Below, piece by piece: positions 1-8,086 of a stretch of DNA of 8,086 bases (within the stretch, counting starts at the first letter, position 1; the number at the start of each line of letters is the position of its first letter). The stretch is taken from the NCBI GenBank assembly GCA_025464735.1, contig JAODMX010000427.1:1-8086 (forward strand). The letters are read 5' to 3'. The notes under the pieces were generated by a model that saw only the letters and a program-made list of their open reading frames with translations, was not told the origin of the DNA and did not search any database. Made by a program: the position numbers and the translations under genes. This DNA is from Frondihabitans sp. Lineage in GTDB: Bacteria > Actinomycetota > Actinomycetes > Actinomycetales > Microbacteriaceae.

Positions 1-76
1 GGGCGCGCCCCATGATGTAGATCAGACCGAGGCAGACGACCAAGAGAGTGACGGCCACGATCGTTGCGGTACTCAT
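1..76 (-). CDS. Small membrane peptide, 5' part only
   Basis: Twenty-five codons are visible before the window ends. The peptide starts MSTATIVAVTLLVVCLGL and continues IYIMGRA, which is one hydrophobic membrane-spanning stretch (about residues 5-22) followed by a positive charge. The ATG at 76-74 overlaps the TGA of the translocase gene (ATGA) and has a strong AGGAGGT ribosome site at 83-89 with 6 bases of spacing, so the start is well supported and translation is probably coupled. Small membrane proteins next to translocase genes in actinomycete plasmids often belong to the spread (Spd) group, but nothing here is specific enough to name one. The 3' end lies outside the window, or at its right end if the molecule is circular. 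Confidence 0.72.
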   Translation of the reverse strand, partial: MSTATIVAVTLLVVCLGLIYIMGRA

Positions 77-1380
77 CGTGCGACCTCCTGTCGGTGGTGG
101 GTGTCGAGTGCGGTGCGGTCGCCGTCGACGAGCGCCTCCCAGCTCACCCGCCGCCCGGCGTGCGCGGCGGACAGGGCGCGGATCTCCGGCGTCGTGAGGT
201 AAGAGCAGCGGGCGTAGTGCCAGTCCTGGCCCGTCGGAACGATCGCCATTCCCGGCCGGGCGAGCCCGAGTGCCCGGCGCTGGACCTCCGCGTCCAGGCC
301 GCCAAGCACCATCTCCGCGGTCTGGGTGTCGTTGACCTGGAGGCAGATCCGGCCCGACACCTGCGCCCGGATGCTGGTGACGTGCTTGCCCAGGTCGGAG
401 CCGAAGCGCTGGCCGCAGAGGATCACATGGATGCCCATCGCCCGGACGAGCTGCACGACCCGCAGCAGCTCCCGGAGGATCTTCTCGGCCGACTTCTCCC
501 CGTCGTGGTCGTGCGTCAGCTCGGCCACCTCGTCGACGAGCACGAACACGCGGCGCAGCCGAACGCCGGCCTCGTCCGCTTCGGCCACGTTGCGCACACC
601 GAGCGCGCGCAGGATCGCGGCCCGCTGCTCGGCCAGCGCGAGAACGCGCCCGCAGGACGTCAGTACCTCGGCCTGCGTCGTGCAGACCTCCGTGTACCGG
701 GCGCGCCACGCCTCGGCCTCCAGCCCGAACTTGAGGTCCCAGAAGACGAGCGCGGCGTCCGTCGGTGCGATGGCTGCTTGCAGGCAGGACAGCAGCATCG
801 ACTTGCCCGAGCCGGTGGCGCCGCACACGAGCACGTGGGGGTGCTCGGTGAAGTCGACGACCATCGGGTCGCCGTTCTCGGCCGCGCCGCACGCCAGCCG
901 GCCGGGCTCCAGCTCTCGCGGTCGCTCCGTGACGCGGGTGAGCGGATCGCGGCGCAGGACGCGGAGCTCGAGGAAGCCGGGCTGCCCGTCGAGCTCCACG
1001 ACCTTGACCGCCTGGACGCGGGCGGTGTGCCGCAGCGGCGTGCAGGCCTCGGCGTACTGGGCGAGGTGCTGTCCCGGCCGCAAGTGGATGCGCGCCGACC
1101 AGCCGTGCGGCGCCACGCGGTAGCGGTCGAGCCGGGGAACGGCGAATACGTCGATGCGCAGCCGGCCCCCGTTCTCGTCGGAGCGGGTCCGCTGGATCGC
1201 CAGGCCGGTGTTCCCGCAGAAGGCCTTCCATCGAAGACCGAGACGGAGTAGCGCGGCGACCGTCCACACGTAGCGCCAGCACGCGACGATCCACCGGGCC
1301 ATCGCCGCGCCGGTGCCGATGACCTGGGCGCGAACATGGCCCACCCGATCCGCCGTCGTCGGGAGCGTCGGAGCGGTCAT
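73..1380 (-). CDS. FtsK/SpoIIIE-type DNA translocase (conjugative transfer)
   Basis: This is a 435-aa P-loop ATPase of the FtsK/SpoIIIE/TraB family. In actinomycete elements this single protein moves double-stranded DNA between mycelial cells. Walker A is GATGSGKS at residues 187-194. LVFWDLKFG (211-219) follows, as is typical for the family. Walker B is VFVLVDEVAEL (278-288, acidic pair D283/E284), and VILCGQR (319-325) fits the sensor strand. Residues ~21-50 are hydrophobic and Trp-rich and may anchor the protein to the membrane. The frame is open further upstream to 1512, but that stretch is Arg/Gly-rich and overlaps the 52-aa gene. I chose the ATG at 1380 because it overlaps that gene's stop (ATGA) and has GGAGG at 1391-1395. 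The length is between pSAM2 TraSA (about 300 aa) and the larger TraB proteins. It sits fourth in an overlapping operon. The translocase assignment is firm; the conjugation role is inferred from context. Confidence 0.9.
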   Translation of the reverse strand: MTAPTLPTTADRVGHVRAQVIGTGAAMARWIVACWRYVWTVAALLRLGLRWKAFCGNTGLAIQRTRSDENGGRLRIDVFAVPRLDRYRVAPHGWSARIHLRPGQHLAQYAEACTPLRHTARVQAVKVVELDGQPGFLELRVLRRDPLTRVTERPRELEPGRLACGAAENGDPMVVDFTEHPHVLVCGATGSGKSMLLSCLQAAIAPTDAALVFWDLKFGLEAEAWRARYTEVCTTQAEVLTSCGRVLALAEQRAAILRALGVRNVAEADEAGVRLRRVFVLVDEVAELTHDHDGEKSAEKILRELLRVVQLVRAMGIHVILCGQRFGSDLGKHVTSIRAQVSGRICLQVNDTQTAEMVLGGLDAEVQRRALGLARPGMAIVPTGQDWHYARCSYLTTPEIRALSAAHAGRRVSWEALVDGDRTALDTHHRQEVAR

Positions 1381-1535
1381 GATGCGACCACCTCCACCAG
1401 CTCGCCGAGCCACACCCAGCCACCGCACGAGGGGCAGCCGTCGGCCGCGAGGCCAGCGAACTCCTCCAGACCGACCGTCACCGGCTCCCACGTGTTGCGG
1501 CATGACGAGCACACGAGGACGGCCACCTCATACAT
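1377..1535 (-). CDS. 52-aa CxxC/CxxC zinc-ribbon-like protein
   Basis: The protein starts MYEVAVLVCSSCRNTWEPVT, carries a second pair GCPSCGGW at residues 33-40, and ends in VEVVAS. The pairs C9/C12 and C34/C37 are the spacing of a zinc ribbon, with aromatic residues around the knuckles. The ATG at 1535-1533 overlaps the stop of the preceding gene by 8 bases and its own TGA overlaps the translocase ATG by 4, so it sits between two coupled genes. GGTGAG five bases upstream is a weak ribosome site, in line with coupling. It is too short for most gene callers. Function is unknown: it could bind DNA or help load the translocase, but only the metal-site pattern is seen. Confidence 0.72.
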   Translation of the reverse strand: MYEVAVLVCSSCRNTWEPVTVGLEEFAGLAADGCPSCGGWVWLGELVEVVAS

Positions 1536-2469: not shown

Positions 2470-3246
2470 TCAGCGAGCGGGGAAGTCGTACTCCAGCACG
2501 TAGGCCGGTGCTGCCTTCACGGTGTCGCACACCTCGACGGCGCGGCCGTCGGTGTCGTACGCGGTGCGGAGCACGGTCAGCACAGGCGTTCCCGGTCCGA
2601 GCTTCAGCCGGCGCCGCTCGTCGGCCGTCGGCATCCGCGCCGTGATCTCCTCGGTGAACCGGTCGAGCATGTGGCCGCTCTCCTCCAGGCGGGCGTAGAT
2701 GCCGCCCGGCCCGGTGTCCTGCTCGGCGATGCGCGTGCCCTCGGCCAGGTCCACGGGGATGTAGGAGACGGCGGTCTCCACCGGCTGCCCCTCGGCGAGG
2801 TAGCGCCGCGACCGAATCACCACGTCGGCGGCCTCGTCGAGCTTGAGCCGCTCCCGGACGAGGTCGGGCGCCGGCCCCCGACCGACGTGGATCTCGTCGA
2901 CGCCCGGAGTCACGCCGGCCTTCTCGGCCTCGGCGAGGAACGCGGCCTGCCCGGCGTCGCGGTGGCGCCGCGCGAACCGGTCGGAGGCGAGCCGGCGCAC
3001 GGGTGCCGGTAGACGGACGAACACGCCGCGGCCCTGCTCGGCAACGACCCGGCCCTCGGCGCGGAGTTCCTGAATCGCCTGCCGCGCGGTCATGCGGGCC
3101 ACGTCGTAGTGCCGCATCAGCTCGGCCTCGGAAGGGAGCTTGTCGCCGGCCGCCAGGTCCCCGCGGTCGATCGCGGTGCGCAGCTGGTCGGCGATCTGGC
3201 GATAGGGCGCGCGGTCATCGCTCCTGTCGAGCGACCCGAGTGCCAC
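2470..3246 (-). CDS. GntR-family repressor with UTRA domain (KorSA-like)
   Basis: The 258-aa regulator has an N-terminal GntR winged helix (residues ~14-78). Its start PYRQIADQLRTAIDRGDL, the helix-turn-helix region LPSEAELMRHYDVARMTARQ and the wing GRVVAEQGRGVFV are typical of the family. A C-terminal UTRA ligand-sensing domain follows (~100-252, with the family-like strand PVLTVLRTAYDTDGRAVE). The frame runs on upstream to 3774, but that part is the antisense of the Nudix gene. I take the GTG at 3246-3244 as the start, so the protein begins MALGSLDRSDDRAPYRQIAD. GGAGG lies 4 bases ahead, which is close. In pSAM2 the GntR protein KorSA represses the replication/transfer activator and itself. 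The same role here is supported by the position between the operon and a divergent Nudix gene and by the shared motifs in both promoter regions. Confidence 0.88.
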   Translation of the reverse strand: MALGSLDRSDDRAPYRQIADQLRTAIDRGDLAAGDKLPSEAELMRHYDVARMTARQAIQELRAEGRVVAEQGRGVFVRLPAPVRRLASDRFARRHRDAGQAAFLAEAEKAGVTPGVDEIHVGRGPAPDLVRERLKLDEAADVVIRSRRYLAEGQPVETAVSYIPVDLAEGTRIAEQDTGPGGIYARLEESGHMLDRFTEEITARMPTADERRRLKLGPGTPVLTVLRTAYDTDGRAVEVCDTVKAAPAYVLEYDFPAR

Positions 3247-3324: not shown

Positions 3325-3747
3325 GTGGCGGACACCCCGAAGCACTCCGTGAGCGTTGCCGGCATCGTCATCCGCGACGACGGCCGCATCCTCGCGATCC
3401 AGCGTCGCGACAACCAGCACTGGGAGCCTCCGGGCGGCGTGCTGGAGCTGGACGAGACGTTCGAGGCCGGCGTCCGCCGCGAGGTTCGCGAGGAGACCGG
3501 CGTCGAGGTCGAGGTCGAGCGCCTCAGCGGGGTCTACAAGAACCTGCCGCGCGGAATCGTCGCGATGGTGTTCCGATGCCACCCTCGCAGCGAGGCCGTC
3601 AGCAGCACCGACGAAGCGAGCCGAATCGGCTGGCTGACCGTCGACGAGATCACCAAGCACATGGACCCCGCCTACGCAGTCCGTGTTACGGATGCTTTTG
3701 AGTACACCCCTGCGAGTCGCACTCATGACGGTGTCAGAATCGTATGA
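3325..3747 (+). CDS. Nudix hydrolase-like protein (Pif-like candidate)
   Basis: The 140-aa protein has a complete Nudix box, G(x5)E(x7)REVxEExGV, from G38 to V60, including E53, E56 and E57 for metal binding. It begins MADTPKHSVSVAGIVIRDDG, and QRRDNQHWEPPGG precedes the box. The family cleaves nucleoside diphosphates linked to another group. The substrate cannot be predicted here. In pSAM2 the immunity factor Pif carries a Nudix motif and blocks entry of a second copy, and elements of this type commonly pair a Nudix gene with a GntR gene, so an immunity role is plausible. The GTG at 3325 is preceded by GGAGG with 4 bases of spacing; a longer frame from 3109 is antisense to gntR and was refused. 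Oddly, the last ~22 codons (from 3681) switch to AT-ending codons like those of the cargo block downstream. Confidence 0.88.
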   Translation: MADTPKHSVSVAGIVIRDDGRILAIQRRDNQHWEPPGGVLELDETFEAGVRREVREETGVEVEVERLSGVYKNLPRGIVAMVFRCHPRSEAVSSTDEASRIGWLTVDEITKHMDPAYAVRVTDAFEYTPASRTHDGVRIV

Positions 3748-3781: not shown

Positions 3782-5158
3782 CTACCAGTACATCGCAATT
3801 ACGTCTGTGTCGATATAGCGCTGGTCACTCGAGTTCTGAGGCGGTGTAGCTGCCGCCCCCGGCAGAAGAGCACCATTCGGGTCTAGCCCTGCTTCTGCAA
3901 GGCACTCCACCCGAAACGTAGCAGCCAGCGTCGGATCTATCGCCGGTGATGGCAGATTGACGCTAGCTTCGACTGCATTGAACGCCGCCCTCCGATCATC
4001 GATTGAGTCGAAGTTTTCAGCGCCAGCATCGGTCGCGATATCGACCGCGATACGCGCCGATTCCGTTAGGGTATGACCGCGACTTTCGGCGATCCTGCCC
4101 GCGTATGCCACCAATGCAATCTTTCGCCTATGCCTTGCTTGACTACCTGCACCGATTGCCGCTGCGCCAGCCATCGCCTCCAGAACGCCTTGACCCATCA
4201 CCTCCATCTGGACGGTTAAGTCAGGTACGGCCACTTCGAGCACTTCGGCAAGCTTAACCGGAGTCCACGATCTACGAATGCCGAGTCGATTTATTCGACA
4301 AAGTACAGTAAATCTTGAGTCCGAGAACAAGATGCGGCGCAGATCTTTCCAGTACAACTGCTCATCTGTCACGCCAACAACGAAGACTTCCTTTGAAGGT
4401 GGTCGTTCAACATCCGGGAGTCCATCTATCGCGCGTTGGTGGACGAGATACTCTTTCCCGTCAATATCGACGCATCGATAATCAACCATCTTGCATTTGA
4501 TCGGAACTAGGCCAACCATGAACTTGCCCAGGACGCGATTCATGATGCGTGCTTGCTCGAATTGTGACCGGACCTCCGGTGTCACCATAGCCGGGTGCTC
4601 ATCAAGCAGCTCCGACATGGCATCAATAATCGAACTTACTCGATACACTGGATCGACTGATACCTCAACAACAGCCTCGACAAGTTCCCCACGACTGAGC
4701 TTCTCAGATGCGAGGACCCAAGGCTCAGCTTTCCCACGCATAGCACCTGCTTTGAGGTCCACCCAAGATGCATAAGGTGCTGAATCTGCCGATGGGGGCG
4801 GCAGAATCAATCGACTCTCCACCTCCAGCAGCTTTTTGAAGGTCGACTGAACCGTCGCCTTCCTCAGAACTTGGGTGCTACTGCCCCTAGTTCCCTGAAT
4901 CTTCGTCGCAGCCTTAGCCTTCGCTACAGGACTGAGGCCCAACTCTATGTCCGCACTGCTCTCTGTCATGAGAGATGCTGTCTGACCCTCGGTCAATTCA
5001 GAGGTTACTTCCCCTAATCGGGATGCGATGAGGCTATATACGCTTACCTCGTCTAGGTAAACGAATTCACGGCGGTCAGTGCCTCGCGAATTCGTCAAGG
5101 CTCGCTGCACTCGATACCTGGAACGCCAAGCGACAAATCTCTCGCGTAAACTGGCCAC
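3782..5158 (-). CDS. 458-aa protein, DUF6414-like; partner of AAA+ ATPase
   Basis: After a basic, Arg-rich leader comes REFVYLDEVSVYSLIASR (residues 30-47), then TQVLRKATVQSTFKKLLE (95-112). Later conserved-looking blocks are FMVGLVPIKCKMVDYRCVDI, EVFVVGVTDEQLYWKDLRR and FTVLCRINRLGIRRSWTPVK. From memory this pattern belongs to the uncharacterised DUF6414 group found in actinobacteria. I could not confirm that by search. A small-residue, Ala/Gly-rich stretch (MGQGVLEAMAGAAAIGAGSQ) near residues 324-343 may be a short amphipathic or membrane-touching helix. No nuclease, protease or kinase signature is visible. The GTG start at 5158 lies 2 bases after the ATPase stop and uses an AGGAGA site inside the end of the ATPase gene, so the pair is co-translated. 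Its end faces the Nudix gene tail-to-tail with 34 bases between and no clear terminator. Codon use is lower in GC than in the element backbone. Confidence 0.82.
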   Translation of the reverse strand: MASLRERFVAWRSRYRVQRALTNSRGTDRREFVYLDEVSVYSLIASRLGEVTSELTEGQTASLMTESSADIELGLSPVAKAKAATKIQGTRGSSTQVLRKATVQSTFKKLLEVESRLILPPPSADSAPYASWVDLKAGAMRGKAEPWVLASEKLSRGELVEAVVEVSVDPVYRVSSIIDAMSELLDEHPAMVTPEVRSQFEQARIMNRVLGKFMVGLVPIKCKMVDYRCVDIDGKEYLVHQRAIDGLPDVERPPSKEVFVVGVTDEQLYWKDLRRILFSDSRFTVLCRINRLGIRRSWTPVKLAEVLEVAVPDLTVQMEVMGQGVLEAMAGAAAIGAGSQARHRRKIALVAYAGRIAESRGHTLTESARIAVDIATDAGAENFDSIDDRRAAFNAVEASVNLPSPAIDPTLAATFRVECLAEAGLDPNGALLPGAAATPPQNSSDQRYIDTDVIAMYW

Positions 5159-5160
5159 TA

Positions 5161-6384
5161 CTATTCTCCTATGGTTGTATTTAGGAGAGCCCGCTTATCG
5201 CGGACGCGCTCGAACGCTCCCCAATAGTCTTCCTCATGTATAGCTGAGCGGCCACTCTTAACCGCGAGCAATGCGGCTTCAGTCCACATGGCGGTCAGTT
5301 CTGCGCCTGACCACCCGTCCGTTATTTCTGCCATCCGACGGTGCGAAAGCGCTCCCTCGGTTTTCAGTTTCCGTGACGACACCTCCAAGATTGCTTCACG
5401 ATCTTGCAATGATGGCAGTCCAAAATGGATCTGCCAGTCTAGTCTCCCTGGGCGGCGGAGTGCCACGTCAATATCTTGTGGTCTGTTGGTTGTGCCGATG
5501 ACTATCACATTCTGCTCCTGCCTGAAGCCATCGAGTGCAGTAAGGAGCTGTGCGACGACGCGACGAGAGTGCTCGTTAGAGTCCGTGTCACGGCGAGTGG
5601 CGATACTGTCAAGCTCGTCGAAGAACACAATAGCGCGCTTCTTGGTCGCAGCGTCGTCGAAGATCATTCGGATGATCTGCTCGCTCTGGCCAACCCACTT
5701 GTTGATAACCTCTGGCCCGCTAATTTCATAGAAGGTGGCCTTGCATACATCCGCGATTATCCTTGCCAGCATTGTCTTACCAGTTCCAGGTTCCCCCGTG
5801 AAGAGCACGCCCTTCACTGGGCGCGCATTGATCTCCTTCAGCTCTTCATGATGCGAAAGCGGAAGCTCGATCAACTCCTTGGCCCGCGCAACAACATCTG
5901 ACAGGCCGCCAAAGTCTGCAAACGAAGCGCGGCTCTCGGTGTCGGGTTCAACCCTGTACCTGTCGATAGCGCTTGGACCTATCTCACCTATGGAATCTAG
6001 GGCGCTTACCGACGTCTCCGACAGCACTCCGAGAACGCCGTCGTTATCTTCGTACTCTACTGTATTGCCGACTGCACAAACGACATCGGTGCTGGGTGGT
6101 AGTAGAACCAGTCGACCGCCATTATCCACCACAGTTCGCTCGTCAGACACCAATCGGACTACTCCGACTGACGTCGAGGTTGGCCACAGGTCATGCGGAA
6201 CCTTCGTGATTCGGCTTTGCGTCTGGTCGTAGAGCAACACGTCCCCGACGTTCAGGTCGAGCGACCCATCGTTGTCCGCAGTGCCAGTTAGCCCGTTCCG
6301 AAACTCCACATAAATGACGGACTCGTCATTACTGAAGGAGCGGACACGGAGTAGTTGCTGGCCCGCGCTTAGTCTGGTCTGCAT
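5161..6384 (-). CDS. AAA+ ATPase with proteasome-ATPase-like layout
   Basis: This 407-aa AAA+ protein is complete. Residues 1-130 are β-rich and look like one or two small OB-type barrels. ADFGGL (156-161) opens the ATPase module. It contains Walker A GEPGTGKT (197-204), pore loop NKWVG (228-232), Walker B AIVFFDELDS (251-260), sensor 1 GTTN (297-300), the arginine-finger segment ALRRPGRLD (308-316) and the lid motif GWSGAEL (357-363). All key residues are present, so it should hydrolyse ATP and thread or remodel protein substrates as a hexamer. The layout resembles Mpa/ARC and CDC48/VPS4 relatives, but there is no N-terminal coiled coil and no C-terminal Tyr motif for docking a proteasome core (it ends LLNTTIGE). 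The ATG at 6384 follows an in-frame TAG four codons upstream. No ribosome site is seen; a TAGCCT box at 6394-6399 makes a leaderless or near-leaderless transcript possible. It forms an operon with the 458-aa gene. Confidence 0.9.
   Translation of the reverse strand: MQTRLSAGQQLLRVRSFSNDESVIYVEFRNGLTGTADNDGSLDLNVGDVLLYDQTQSRITKVPHDLWPTSTSVGVVRLVSDERTVVDNGGRLVLLPPSTDVVCAVGNTVEYEDNDGVLGVLSETSVSALDSIGEIGPSAIDRYRVEPDTESRASFADFGGLSDVVARAKELIELPLSHHEELKEINARPVKGVLFTGEPGTGKTMLARIIADVCKATFYEISGPEVINKWVGQSEQIIRMIFDDAATKKRAIVFFDELDSIATRRDTDSNEHSRRVVAQLLTALDGFRQEQNVIVIGTTNRPQDIDVALRRPGRLDWQIHFGLPSLQDREAILEVSSRKLKTEGALSHRRMAEITDGWSGAELTAMWTEAALLAVKSGRSAIHEEDYWGAFERVRDKRALLNTTIGE
5165..5170 (-). promoter_or_regulatory. 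Ribosome binding site coupling the ATPase and its partner
   Basis: AGGAGA lies within the last three codons of the ATPase gene, 6 bases ahead of the partner's GTG at 5158. It fixes that start and implies that both proteins are made from one transcript. Confidence 0.65.
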
Positions 6385-6612: not shown

Positions 6613-7854
6613 TCATGAAGAACGCGTGGTCAAGTCCGCGAGGTAGCGCGCGAGCTGGGAGGCGAACTCTGACCCATCGTTGACGCAGATGAACCCGCGC
6701 CCGTGCTTGAACAGCGCCTTCCGCACGGTGCTGCGCCGGTAGGTCACGCGGCCGGTCGACTGCTCGACGCGCTGCACGCTGATCGTCTTCGTGAGGCGCT
6801 TCGCCCGGTACCAGCGGCGCGCGATCCGGCCGGCCGCGATCCCGACCTCCGGCGTCACCTGTCGGATGGCCAGCTCGCGGTGCAGACCGCGGTAGCCCCA
6901 GAACCTTCCGACGCTGCCCTCCTCGGTGACATCCGCATCCGGGCCGGCGCAGTCGGGGCACTCGTCGCGATCCTGGTCGTAGCCCGCTCCGCAGTCCGTG
7001 CACACGAGAACCGTCGTCAGCCACTCGCGCGGCACCTGGTGCTGGTACTCCTTGCTCCCGCCCGTGCCGTACTTCGCGAAGTACACCGCCATCCGTCGCG
7101 GGTCGGTCAGCTTGATGCCCTGCGCATAGTCGACGCCCGTGCCGGCGAGAAGGTGGCGTCGACGCTGTTCAGGGTCGGGGTGGCCGACGATGTCAGCCCA
7201 GGTGATCGAGAGCCAGCGCTTGAAGTCGACGCGGATCGACTGGCCGGTGGCCGGGTCGGGGACGGCCGTGGTGCCCATCGGTGGCGTGGTCGACAGGTGG
7301 AAGTGCGGCGCCCCGCGCCCCTGGAACTCCTTCTTCCACGGCCCGCGCAACGGCTCGCCCCAGGTCCGCGCGTAGCGCTTGCACAGCGCCTGGAAGTGCT
7401 GCGTGACCGTGCCGGCGTCCGGGGCGACGGTCAGCCAGTCGCCGGGGTAGGTCAACGTCAGCATGGCCGGCAACCGGCCCCGCCGGTCCTCCGTGGTGCG
7501 TTCCGCGGAACGGCAGCGCGGGCAGTAGCCGAGGTGCTCGTCGTACTCCCTGCGGCAACCGGTGCAGATGTGGAACCGACCGTAGAGGTAGGTGTAGTCC
7601 AGGTCCGAGAGCCGCTCGACGAGTCGGGCACGGGACTTGCGCGTCCAGGCGGTGATCGTGCCTCGGGTTGGCAGGGCGTCGGGCATGTCGCCCTCCCAGG
7701 TGGCGGCGATGTCGATGTGCTTGCGGTGCCGCTCGACGGCGCGCTCGTGGGTGCGCTCCGCGCGGGCGTAGTCGCGGGTACGGACGCGGAACACGCCTGG
7801 GCTGACGACGATCTCCCACCATGGCCCCTCGCTCAGGATTCCCTGCTCGCCCAC
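6613..7854 (-). CDS. Rolling-circle replication initiator (HUH endonuclease) with two zinc ribbons
   Basis: From the GTG at 7854 the protein has 413 aa. Motif 1 is MLTLTYPGDW (131-140), the HUH metal site is APHFHL (182-187, H184 and H186), and the Tyr motif is AVYFAKY with the likely nicking residue Y258 and K261. These are the three hallmarks of a one-tyrosine HUH Rep that nicks the origin and stays joined to the DNA 5' end. GRFWGYRGL (317-325) is also typical of actinobacterial Reps of this type. Two zinc-ribbon-like sites are present: CTGC…CPRC (97-114), before motif 1, and CTDC…CPDC (285-302), between the Tyr motif and GRFWGYRGL. The start is uncertain. No ribosome site precedes the GTG, the frame stays open to the window's right end without ATG, GTG or TTG, and codons back to about 7965 still look coding. 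The true protein may therefore be ~35 or more residues longer. It does not resemble RepSA of pSAM2 in the part I can compare. Confidence 0.88.
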   Translation of the reverse strand: MGEQGILSEGPWWEIVVSPGVFRVRTRDYARAERTHERAVERHRKHIDIAATWEGDMPDALPTRGTITAWTRKSRARLVERLSDLDYTYLYGRFHICTGCRREYDEHLGYCPRCRSAERTTEDRRGRLPAMLTLTYPGDWLTVAPDAGTVTQHFQALCKRYARTWGEPLRGPWKKEFQGRGAPHFHLSTTPPMGTTAVPDPATGQSIRVDFKRWLSITWADIVGHPDPEQRRRHLLAGTGVDYAQGIKLTDPRRMAVYFAKYGTGGSKEYQHQVPREWLTTVLVCTDCGAGYDQDRDECPDCAGPDADVTEEGSVGRFWGYRGLHRELAIRQVTPEVGIAAGRIARRWYRAKRLTKTISVQRVEQSTGRVTYRRSTVRKALFKHGRGFICVNDGSEFASQLARYLADLTTRSS

Positions 7855-7877: not shown

Positions 7878-8086
7878 TCAGGTCGGCGGCGTGCTGGACC
7901 AGCTCAGCGCTCGGGAACCACGGCTGCCACAGCGGGGTCGGCTCGACGTCGACGTCGGTCCGTTCCGGTGCTCGGACAGATATGGCACATGGGACAAGCC
8001 CAGCCGGGCCGCCGGGCTCGGCCTGGTCACGGCCACGGCCGTGGCGGCGCTCGGCCAGGCCGGGGCTCCAGCCTCCGGCGCGCCCC
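7878..8086 (-). CDS. Possible 3' part of a small Ala/Pro-rich protein upstream of rep
   Basis: This frame is open from the right edge to a TGA at 7878-7880. From ~7980 to 8086 it has strongly GC-ending codons and reads …GAPAWPSAATAVAVTRPSPA…, an Ala/Pro-rich low-complexity stretch. Below ~7960 its codons become poor (CGA, TGT, CGT, GGT) while the rep frame becomes good. It could be the tail of a gene entering from outside. If the window is circular and the last base joins the first, it is in frame with the membrane peptide at 1-76. Evidence is codon preference and frame only. Confidence 0.3.
   Translation of the reverse strand, partial: GAPEAGAPAWPSAATAVAVTRPSPAARLGLSHVPYLSEHRNGPTSTSSRPRCGSRGSRALSWSSTPPT
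7997..8060. repeat. GC-rich nested dyads upstream of rep
   Basis: The near-palindrome at 7997-8018 (AGCCC…GGGCT, inner GC/GC) is followed by GCCTGG (8021-8026) pairing with CCAGGC (8055-8060). A perfect 12-bp palindrome CCACGGCCGTGG (8033-8044) lies inside that second stem. Such stems before a rep gene may regulate its expression or be part of an origin. They may also be a by-product of Ala/Pro/Arg-rich GC-rich coding sequence, since the same bases sit in an open frame. Confidence 0.35.

Follow-up and report, generated by a model that had tools for sequence, protein, structure and literature searches.

An AAA ATPase and a long-form DUF6414 protein form a strictly paired cassette, a candidate defence module, on a conjugative element of Frondihabitans sp.

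A window of 8,086 nucleotides from Frondihabitans sp. (positions 1 to 8,086 of contig JAODMX010000427.1, assembly GCA_025464735.1) carries a two-gene cassette, encoding an AAA ATPase and a long-form member of the protein family PF19952 (DUF6414), as cargo on a conjugative element. The two genes represent a strictly paired unit, and it is nearly certain that their products function together. The favoured reading, held with about even confidence, is that the pair is a module complete in itself that most probably serves in defence against phages or mobile elements, where the ATPase would remodel the DUF6414 protein. The cassette and its gene junction are as follows:

5161..6384, minus strand: AAA ATPase gene, 407 amino acids (PF00004 with AAA_lid_3)
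3782..5158, minus strand: long-form DUF6414 gene, 458 amino acids (PF19952 profile; AlphaFold2 (AF2) model with a mean predicted local distance difference test score (pLDDT) of 85.3)
5156..5170, minus strand: gene junction, reading AGGAG, the ATPase stop codon TAG, 2 nucleotides and the GTG start codon of DUF6414 (sequence)

Both open reading frames are intact and uninterrupted. Because only 2 nucleotides separate the ATPase stop codon (5161-5163) from the DUF6414 start codon (5156-5158) and an AGGAG is found at 5166-5170, translational coupling of the two genes is plausible. The GC content of the pair is 54.9%, versus 70.5% for the rest of the window, and the GC content at third codon positions is 0.545 for the DUF6414 gene and 0.615 for the ATPase gene, whereas the six other genes measured fall at 0.84-0.92. 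The first-pass annotation of this DNA had described an intact pair of contrasting composition in a cargo slot between a Nudix gene (3325-3747, plus strand) and rep (6613-7854, minus strand), all of which was confirmed in the sequence. It had also asked whether the partner belongs to DUF6414, and the PF19952 profile indeed matched residues 30-339 with an E-value of 2.7e-40, scoring 139.3 bits where the cut-off is 25. The protein matched no other family.

The linkage of the two genes was found to extend well beyond this window. A tblastn search with the window DUF6414 protein matched 21 plasmid records, and the eight plasmid loci opened among these all have the AAA gene immediately upstream in the same orientation. 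Genome contigs were also searched in a pattern-based scan, which was seeded with aligned long forms and thus leans towards the window protein; this yielded 65 genome loci, in a few of which genes are broken or truncated at a contig end. In each of the 65, a window-related AAA frame lies directly upstream of the long DUF6414 frame on the same strand, and in 64 of them the DUF6414 frame begins no later than the AAA stop codon. As all 65 genome relatives of the partner carry it, the pairing is more than chance, and the earlier description of a mobile two-gene unit is supported. By record title, the hosts include Actinomycetota, Chloroflexi, Acidobacteria, alphaproteobacteria (Devosia, Rhizobium, Brevundimonas and Thioclava), an Ignavibacterium metagenome-assembled genome (MAG) and haloarchaea, and many of the records are MAGs.

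Since the pattern-based scan is biased towards the window protein, a second survey was performed with the Pfam profile alone. PF19952 matched 31 of 242 Halobacteria genomes, 7 of 398 genomes from the phylum of a Thioclava host and 24 of 396 genomes from the phylum of a Streptomyces host. All 16 intact long forms in these surveys (11, 2 and 3, respectively) have an intact AAA gene upstream; 8 of these were already in the 65-locus set, 3 of them as survey centres, and 8 are new. One further long form has a frame-broken AAA gene, and the only unpaired long forms in the surveys are two broken remnants (L137 and L184). By comparison, none of the 44 short DUF6414 genes (20, 4 and 20) has an adjacent AAA gene, 3 of the 44 (G182, G707 and G841) having less than 0.5 kb of contig upstream. 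These long and short counts omit G036, G512 and G830, which are below the cut-off, and the broken long forms G084 and G905, which lack an AAA gene; the split genes G182, G689 and G807 are each counted once. The DUF6414 family overall is therefore mostly ATPase-free and the long subfamily is paired. The concern raised at first pass, that homologues of the partner may mostly occur without such an ATPase, thus applies to PF19952 as a whole and not to the long subfamily.

The linkage was also seen from the ATPase side. A profile of the ATPase N-terminal domain, built from 55 paired ATPases and searched in the same 242 haloarchaeal genomes, matched 11 of them. The 10 matches at E <= 1.1e-7 are all in genomes that hold the pair, 3 of these genomes having also contributed to the profile; the eleventh match is weak (2.9e-5) and comes from a genome without a DUF6414 match. 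Of the 11 genomes that carry the pair intact, the profile missed G142. For 61 pairs, tree distances of the ATPases and the DUF6414 proteins were correlated (r = 0.91, with 0.24 as the highest value in 2000 permutations); shared host phylogeny inflates this correlation. The alignments of 61 sequences were obtained by removing 14 of 74 loci (3 duplicates and 11 that were broken, split, contig-cut or odd, including L007) and adding the window. No other neighbour family was found in more than 3 of 71 loci compared, and thus there is no sign of a third conserved gene among these. No relatives were found on viral contigs in the related-locus scan, and tblastn of the window DUF6414 protein against phage records gave no match at E <= 0.01; one unannotated phage-labelled record matches a short DUF6414 form at 31.6% identity. 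The window ATPase matched 29 phage records at E <= 1e-20, none covering more than 80% of its length, and the 10 of these matches that were listed lie from residue 142 onwards and cover the AAA domain only.

Genes around the pair (up to two per side at the 65 loci) were scanned against PADLOC models at E <= 1e-15, covering 227 of the 228 crudely called neighbours; the one omitted is the terminal fragment of a DUF6414 gene that is split. The neighbour sets of 133 and 94 proteins matched 129 and 146 models, versus 72 for a control set of 133 proteins, these being counts of models, not proteins, with 25 models listed per set. The control represents 133 of 226 proteins called in 20 hand-chosen regions of 17 genomes (13 hosts of the pair and 4 with short forms). 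The 25 control models listed are GajB models of the UvrD-helicase type, the helicase model RTasHel, ShosA and PDC-S68, with one protein each, and these are read as mostly housekeeping helicases. Among the models listed for the neighbours, family-level matches include DruA, CBASS cyclase and effectors, PtuA, GajA and PDC-M01A, and overall the neighbour matches span models for type I and type III restriction, Gabija, CBASS, Druantia, Septu and AbiE. At individual loci the pair is accompanied by genes for type III restriction and methylation that lie upstream in the same orientation (L056), a type I restriction enzyme (L050, with relatives in L036 and L044 by clustering), GajA (L038), GajA- and GajB-like genes (L060), AbiEii (L042), a PDC-M23B/HamB-like helicase (L024) and a partial Dsr1-like match (L033). 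The neighbourhood is therefore rich in defence-model matches, as had been suggested for coupled genes in such a slot, and enrichment of defence genes around the pair is suggestive, the comparison resting on model counts rather than a per-gene count. In addition, the copy of the pair on a Rubrobacter plasmid (L001, 15271-17389) lies about 6 kb from genes annotated as a SIR2-family protein and a serine/threonine kinase.

The ATPase is predicted to have an N-terminal tandem OB-like beta-barrel domain (residues ~1-125), followed by a PAN/Cdc48-like AAA domain (~150-390) that matched PF00004 with an E-value of 1.9e-42. The N-terminal domain region maps to:

6010..6384, minus strand: ATPase N-domain region, residues ~1-125, with ten strands in two barrels (9-62 and 72-122) (AF2 model, pLDDT 89.6)

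By structure comparison of the AF2 model, this region resembles the Mpa/ARC interdomain and other tandem OB proteins. The AAA motif columns (Walker A/B and arginine finger) are conserved across the 61 pairs, with the Walker A pattern in 61/61 and a K[WYF]xG pore loop in 53/61 of the aligned ATPases. An N-terminal coiled coil was not found, the first predicted strand starting at residue 9 with no helix ahead of it, and none of the 61 ATPases carries a C-terminal hydrophobic-tyrosine-X (HbYX) motif.

For the DUF6414 protein, no PADLOC model matched at E <= 0.01, no solved structure matched the predicted fold at E <= 0.001, and no mention of DUF6414 or PF19952 was found in the literature searched; likewise, the libraries and literature searched contained no described system that combines the two genes, in agreement with the first-pass annotation. 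In the AF2 model, a core with an N-terminal strand (32-35) and a C-terminal strand (446-457) has helices between residues 302 and 422. Its features are:

5072..5158, minus strand: Arg/Trp-rich N-terminal helix, residues 1-29 (AF2 model, charge count)
4880..4978, minus strand: Gly/Ala/Ser-rich segment, residues 61-93 (model, beta-type alternation)
3824..4228, minus strand: insertion largely specific to AAA-paired long forms, residues ~311-445, mostly helical (model, alignment)
3785..3823, minus strand: C-terminal strand ending in A-x-Y-W at the free C-terminus (model, alignment)

When 61 long and 39 short forms were aligned together, most of residues ~121-150, 221-250 and 311-445 proved to be missing from the short forms, residues ~341-370 within the last of these having a counterpart in many short forms. 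The net charge of the N-terminal 29 residues is positive in 58/61 aligned pairs. Residues 61-93 have the highest Gly/Ala/Ser content, contain the least confident stretch of the model and show a strand-like alternation (beta moment 0.35-0.41 versus alpha 0.16-0.23). A solo haloarchaeal DUF6414 protein (L112, 5963-7186) opens with two strongly hydrophobic stretches ahead of the core, which resemble membrane anchors. The N-terminal charge, residues 61-93 and these hydrophobic stretches are hints towards membranes, no more. At the other end of the protein, an [AG]xYW end is found in 61/61 aligned paired forms; the exact YW end is fixed in all of these and variable in short forms, many of which share the tail strand with PIA[IV]Y[WR] and similar ends. 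The tail is the last strand of the modelled fold (pLDDT ~96). A paired DUF6414 protein without the A-x-Y-W end is encoded on the Halobacterium salinarum plasmid PHS3 (L007, 5821-7074) and is outside the 61.

The pair is read as a defence or conflict system because it is a two-gene unit that is inherited together, is carried on plasmids and other elements, lies beside defence genes, occurs in bacteria and archaea, and has no recurrent third partner. Judged from its neighbours and context, such a role is rather probable. In the mechanism proposed, the ATPase would form a hexamer bearing an OB-barrel collar like that of Mpa/ARC, and its pore loop would pull on DUF6414 as a dedicated client. DUF6414 is taken as the sensor or effector because it is the solo-capable part, with a core that also exists alone elsewhere and mostly helical insertions where it is paired. 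Infection would then lead to ATP-driven remodelling that releases or assembles the DUF6414 effector, and the Arg/Trp-rich helix and the Gly-rich segment may point to the membrane as its target. That DUF6414 is the remodelled effector is possible, if somewhat doubtful, on the predicted structures; that the membrane is its target is unlikely. A broader proposal, still less likely, is that bacteria and haloarchaea have in common a defence system based on an orphan unfoldase of the proteasome type, which, decoupled from proteolysis, would remodel a new effector fold, DUF6414, so that the Gly-rich segment and the basic N-terminal helix insert into the membrane, the solo DUF6414 proteins being ATPase-free versions with triggers of their own. 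If the pair is a defence system, it would represent a widely spread module whose partner has no model in the PADLOC library used, give a first functional handle on PF19952, and show a proteasome-type unfoldase with a dedicated partner in place of a peptidase. The strict association of the long form with the ATPase makes the idea directly testable.

Several observations weigh against the defence reading with its remodelling mechanism. Short DUF6414 genes live without an AAA gene, and the core thus does not need the ATPase. The mechanism draws on predicted structure, and two tandem OB proteins unrelated to the proteasome outrank Mpa/ARC in the Foldseek comparison. The beta-type alternation in residues 61-93 is modest relative to shuffles (mean z of 1.15 for 58 long and 0.57 for 39 short forms), and this segment is of low hydrophobicity. 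In the neighbourhood analysis, 29 of 39 individually scanned neighbours, selected by size and position, had no match at the thresholds used (10 matched), and the control with its 72 models was hand-picked by position, with size limits differing from those of the test sets; test set A7 had five proteins longer than 1100 amino acids and the control had none. The host phylogeny contained in the tree-distance correlation also belongs here.

The most likely alternative, itself rather unlikely, is that DUF6414 acts as a substrate adaptor: seated on the OB collar, it would bring proteins of phages or plasmids to the ATPase, which would unfold them alone or for a host peptidase. The resemblance of the ATPase to proteasomal unfoldases fits this role, as does the presence in the long forms of separate insertions in the core, a possible docking part, and the match of DUF6414 to PF19952 and no other family. 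However, no peptidase gene recurs with the pair, the ATPases lack the HbYX end, and the DUF6414 core occurs without the ATPase. Moreover, the proteasome family profile PF00227 had no match in 7/20 host assemblies (several draft MAGs), the isolate genomes without a match being those of Nonomuraea zeae and a Leucobacter; the profile matched 10/14 control genomes, including E. coli, and bacterial HslV therefore also counts as a match.

It is improbable that the cassette stabilizes its element by addiction, with DUF6414 as a toxin and the ATPase as an antitoxin or disaggregase. In favour of this reading, the two coupled genes are carried on plasmids and other elements. Toxins often adjoin XRE-type regulators, and three metagenome proteins of 520 amino acids (P0221, P0222 and P0223) fuse an XRE-type helix-turn-helix domain to a short DUF6414, probably through in-frame fusion of an adjacent regulator gene. 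Yet cells tolerate the DUF6414 core without the ATPase, since none of the 44 short forms (3 short of upstream room) has one adjacent, and many pairs are on large contigs, some beside defence genes.

A role for the cassette in the replication or transfer of the element itself, or in the control thereof, is very unlikely: its location within a transfer element, with the Nudix gene on one side and rep on the other, would suit this, but the pair also occurs in several phyla and in archaea, carried by other plasmids and by large contigs, its GC content differs sharply from that of the element, and none of the 11 plasmid records in which Rep has a relative is among the 20 listed of the 21 DUF6414 plasmid records. 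Finally, docking of the A-x-Y-W end of DUF6414 as an HbYX-type module on the 20S proteasome is scarcely credible and was rejected as a general mechanism, since the tail is modelled as the last strand of the fold and is shared by many solo forms, 7/20 host assemblies, including the two isolates, have no proteasome-family match and the tail is absent in L007, even though the [AG]xYW end fits the hydrophobic-Tyr-X pattern and the ATPase is PAN/Mpa-like.

The element that carries the cassette is represented in the window by the following genes:

73..1512, minus strand: FtsK/SpoIIIE-type transfer ATPase (PF01580)
2470..3243, minus strand: GntR/UTRA regulator, same family as KorSA (PF00392, PF07702)
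3325..3747, plus strand: Nudix hydrolase, Pif-like only by analogy with pSAM2 (PF00293)
6613..7854, minus strand: replication initiator, rep (PF23343 above cut-off, RepSA below cut-off)

Two small genes lie between the GntR/UTRA regulator and the FtsK/SpoIIIE-type gene. The transfer, GntR and Nudix genes support the earlier description of a conjugative element, which may be an integrative element or a small plasmid. The eight window open reading frames scanned contained no integrase domain, and the window may be incomplete. Positions 2-11 and 8077-8086 share the 10 bases GGCGCGCCCC, and the rep frame stays open upstream as far as the window end; the record may therefore represent a small circular plasmid or have been truncated at a repeat. 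In a search of 296 actinomycete genomes, Rep had a match in 2. As described in PMC3218068, KorSA of pSAM2 is a GntR regulator and Pif is a Nudix protein that acts in conjugal immunity. The actinomycete integrative and conjugative elements and small plasmids of the pSAM2 type have an FtsK-type Tra, a GntR protein (KorSA family), a Nudix protein (Pif family) and a Rep, as found here (PMC3218068); of the carrier genes tested, Tra and Rep are present, the RepSA profile scoring below its cut-off in a window that may be incomplete. This likeness concerns the carrier, not the cassette: plasmids related to the carrier do not show the cassette (among the 20 of 21 DUF6414 records listed), and no integrase was seen in the frames scanned.

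Among known systems, the AAA domain scores best with PAN (235.8 bits) and CDC48 (225.6 bits) among NCBIfam models, below the cut-offs (235.8 of 500 for PAN and 151.1 of 504.75 for pup_AAA). With the proteasomal ATPases Mpa/ARC and PAN it shares the AAA domain and, as modelled, a tandem OB-like collar ahead of it; unlike these, it has neither a coiled coil nor an HbYX motif and is linked to DUF6414 rather than to a proteasome. IetAS, reportedly composed of the AAA ATPase IetA and the peptidase IetS, is also a two-gene cassette, and IetA profiles match the AAA domain (2e-32). This match covers the AAA domain only, at 98.6 of 510 bits and thus far below the NCBIfam cut-off, and the partner here is a DUF6414 protein (PF19952 only) and not, as IetS is said to be, a peptidase. 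The solo short DUF6414 proteins have a median length of 301 amino acids (39 aligned), no adjacent ATPase, few of the long-form insertions and neighbour families that recur in at most 4 of 46 loci (from crude gene calls, a few of the 46 being broken or not short). They share with the long form the same core, from an N-terminal (F/Y)xYLD strand to a PIA(I/V)Y-type end.

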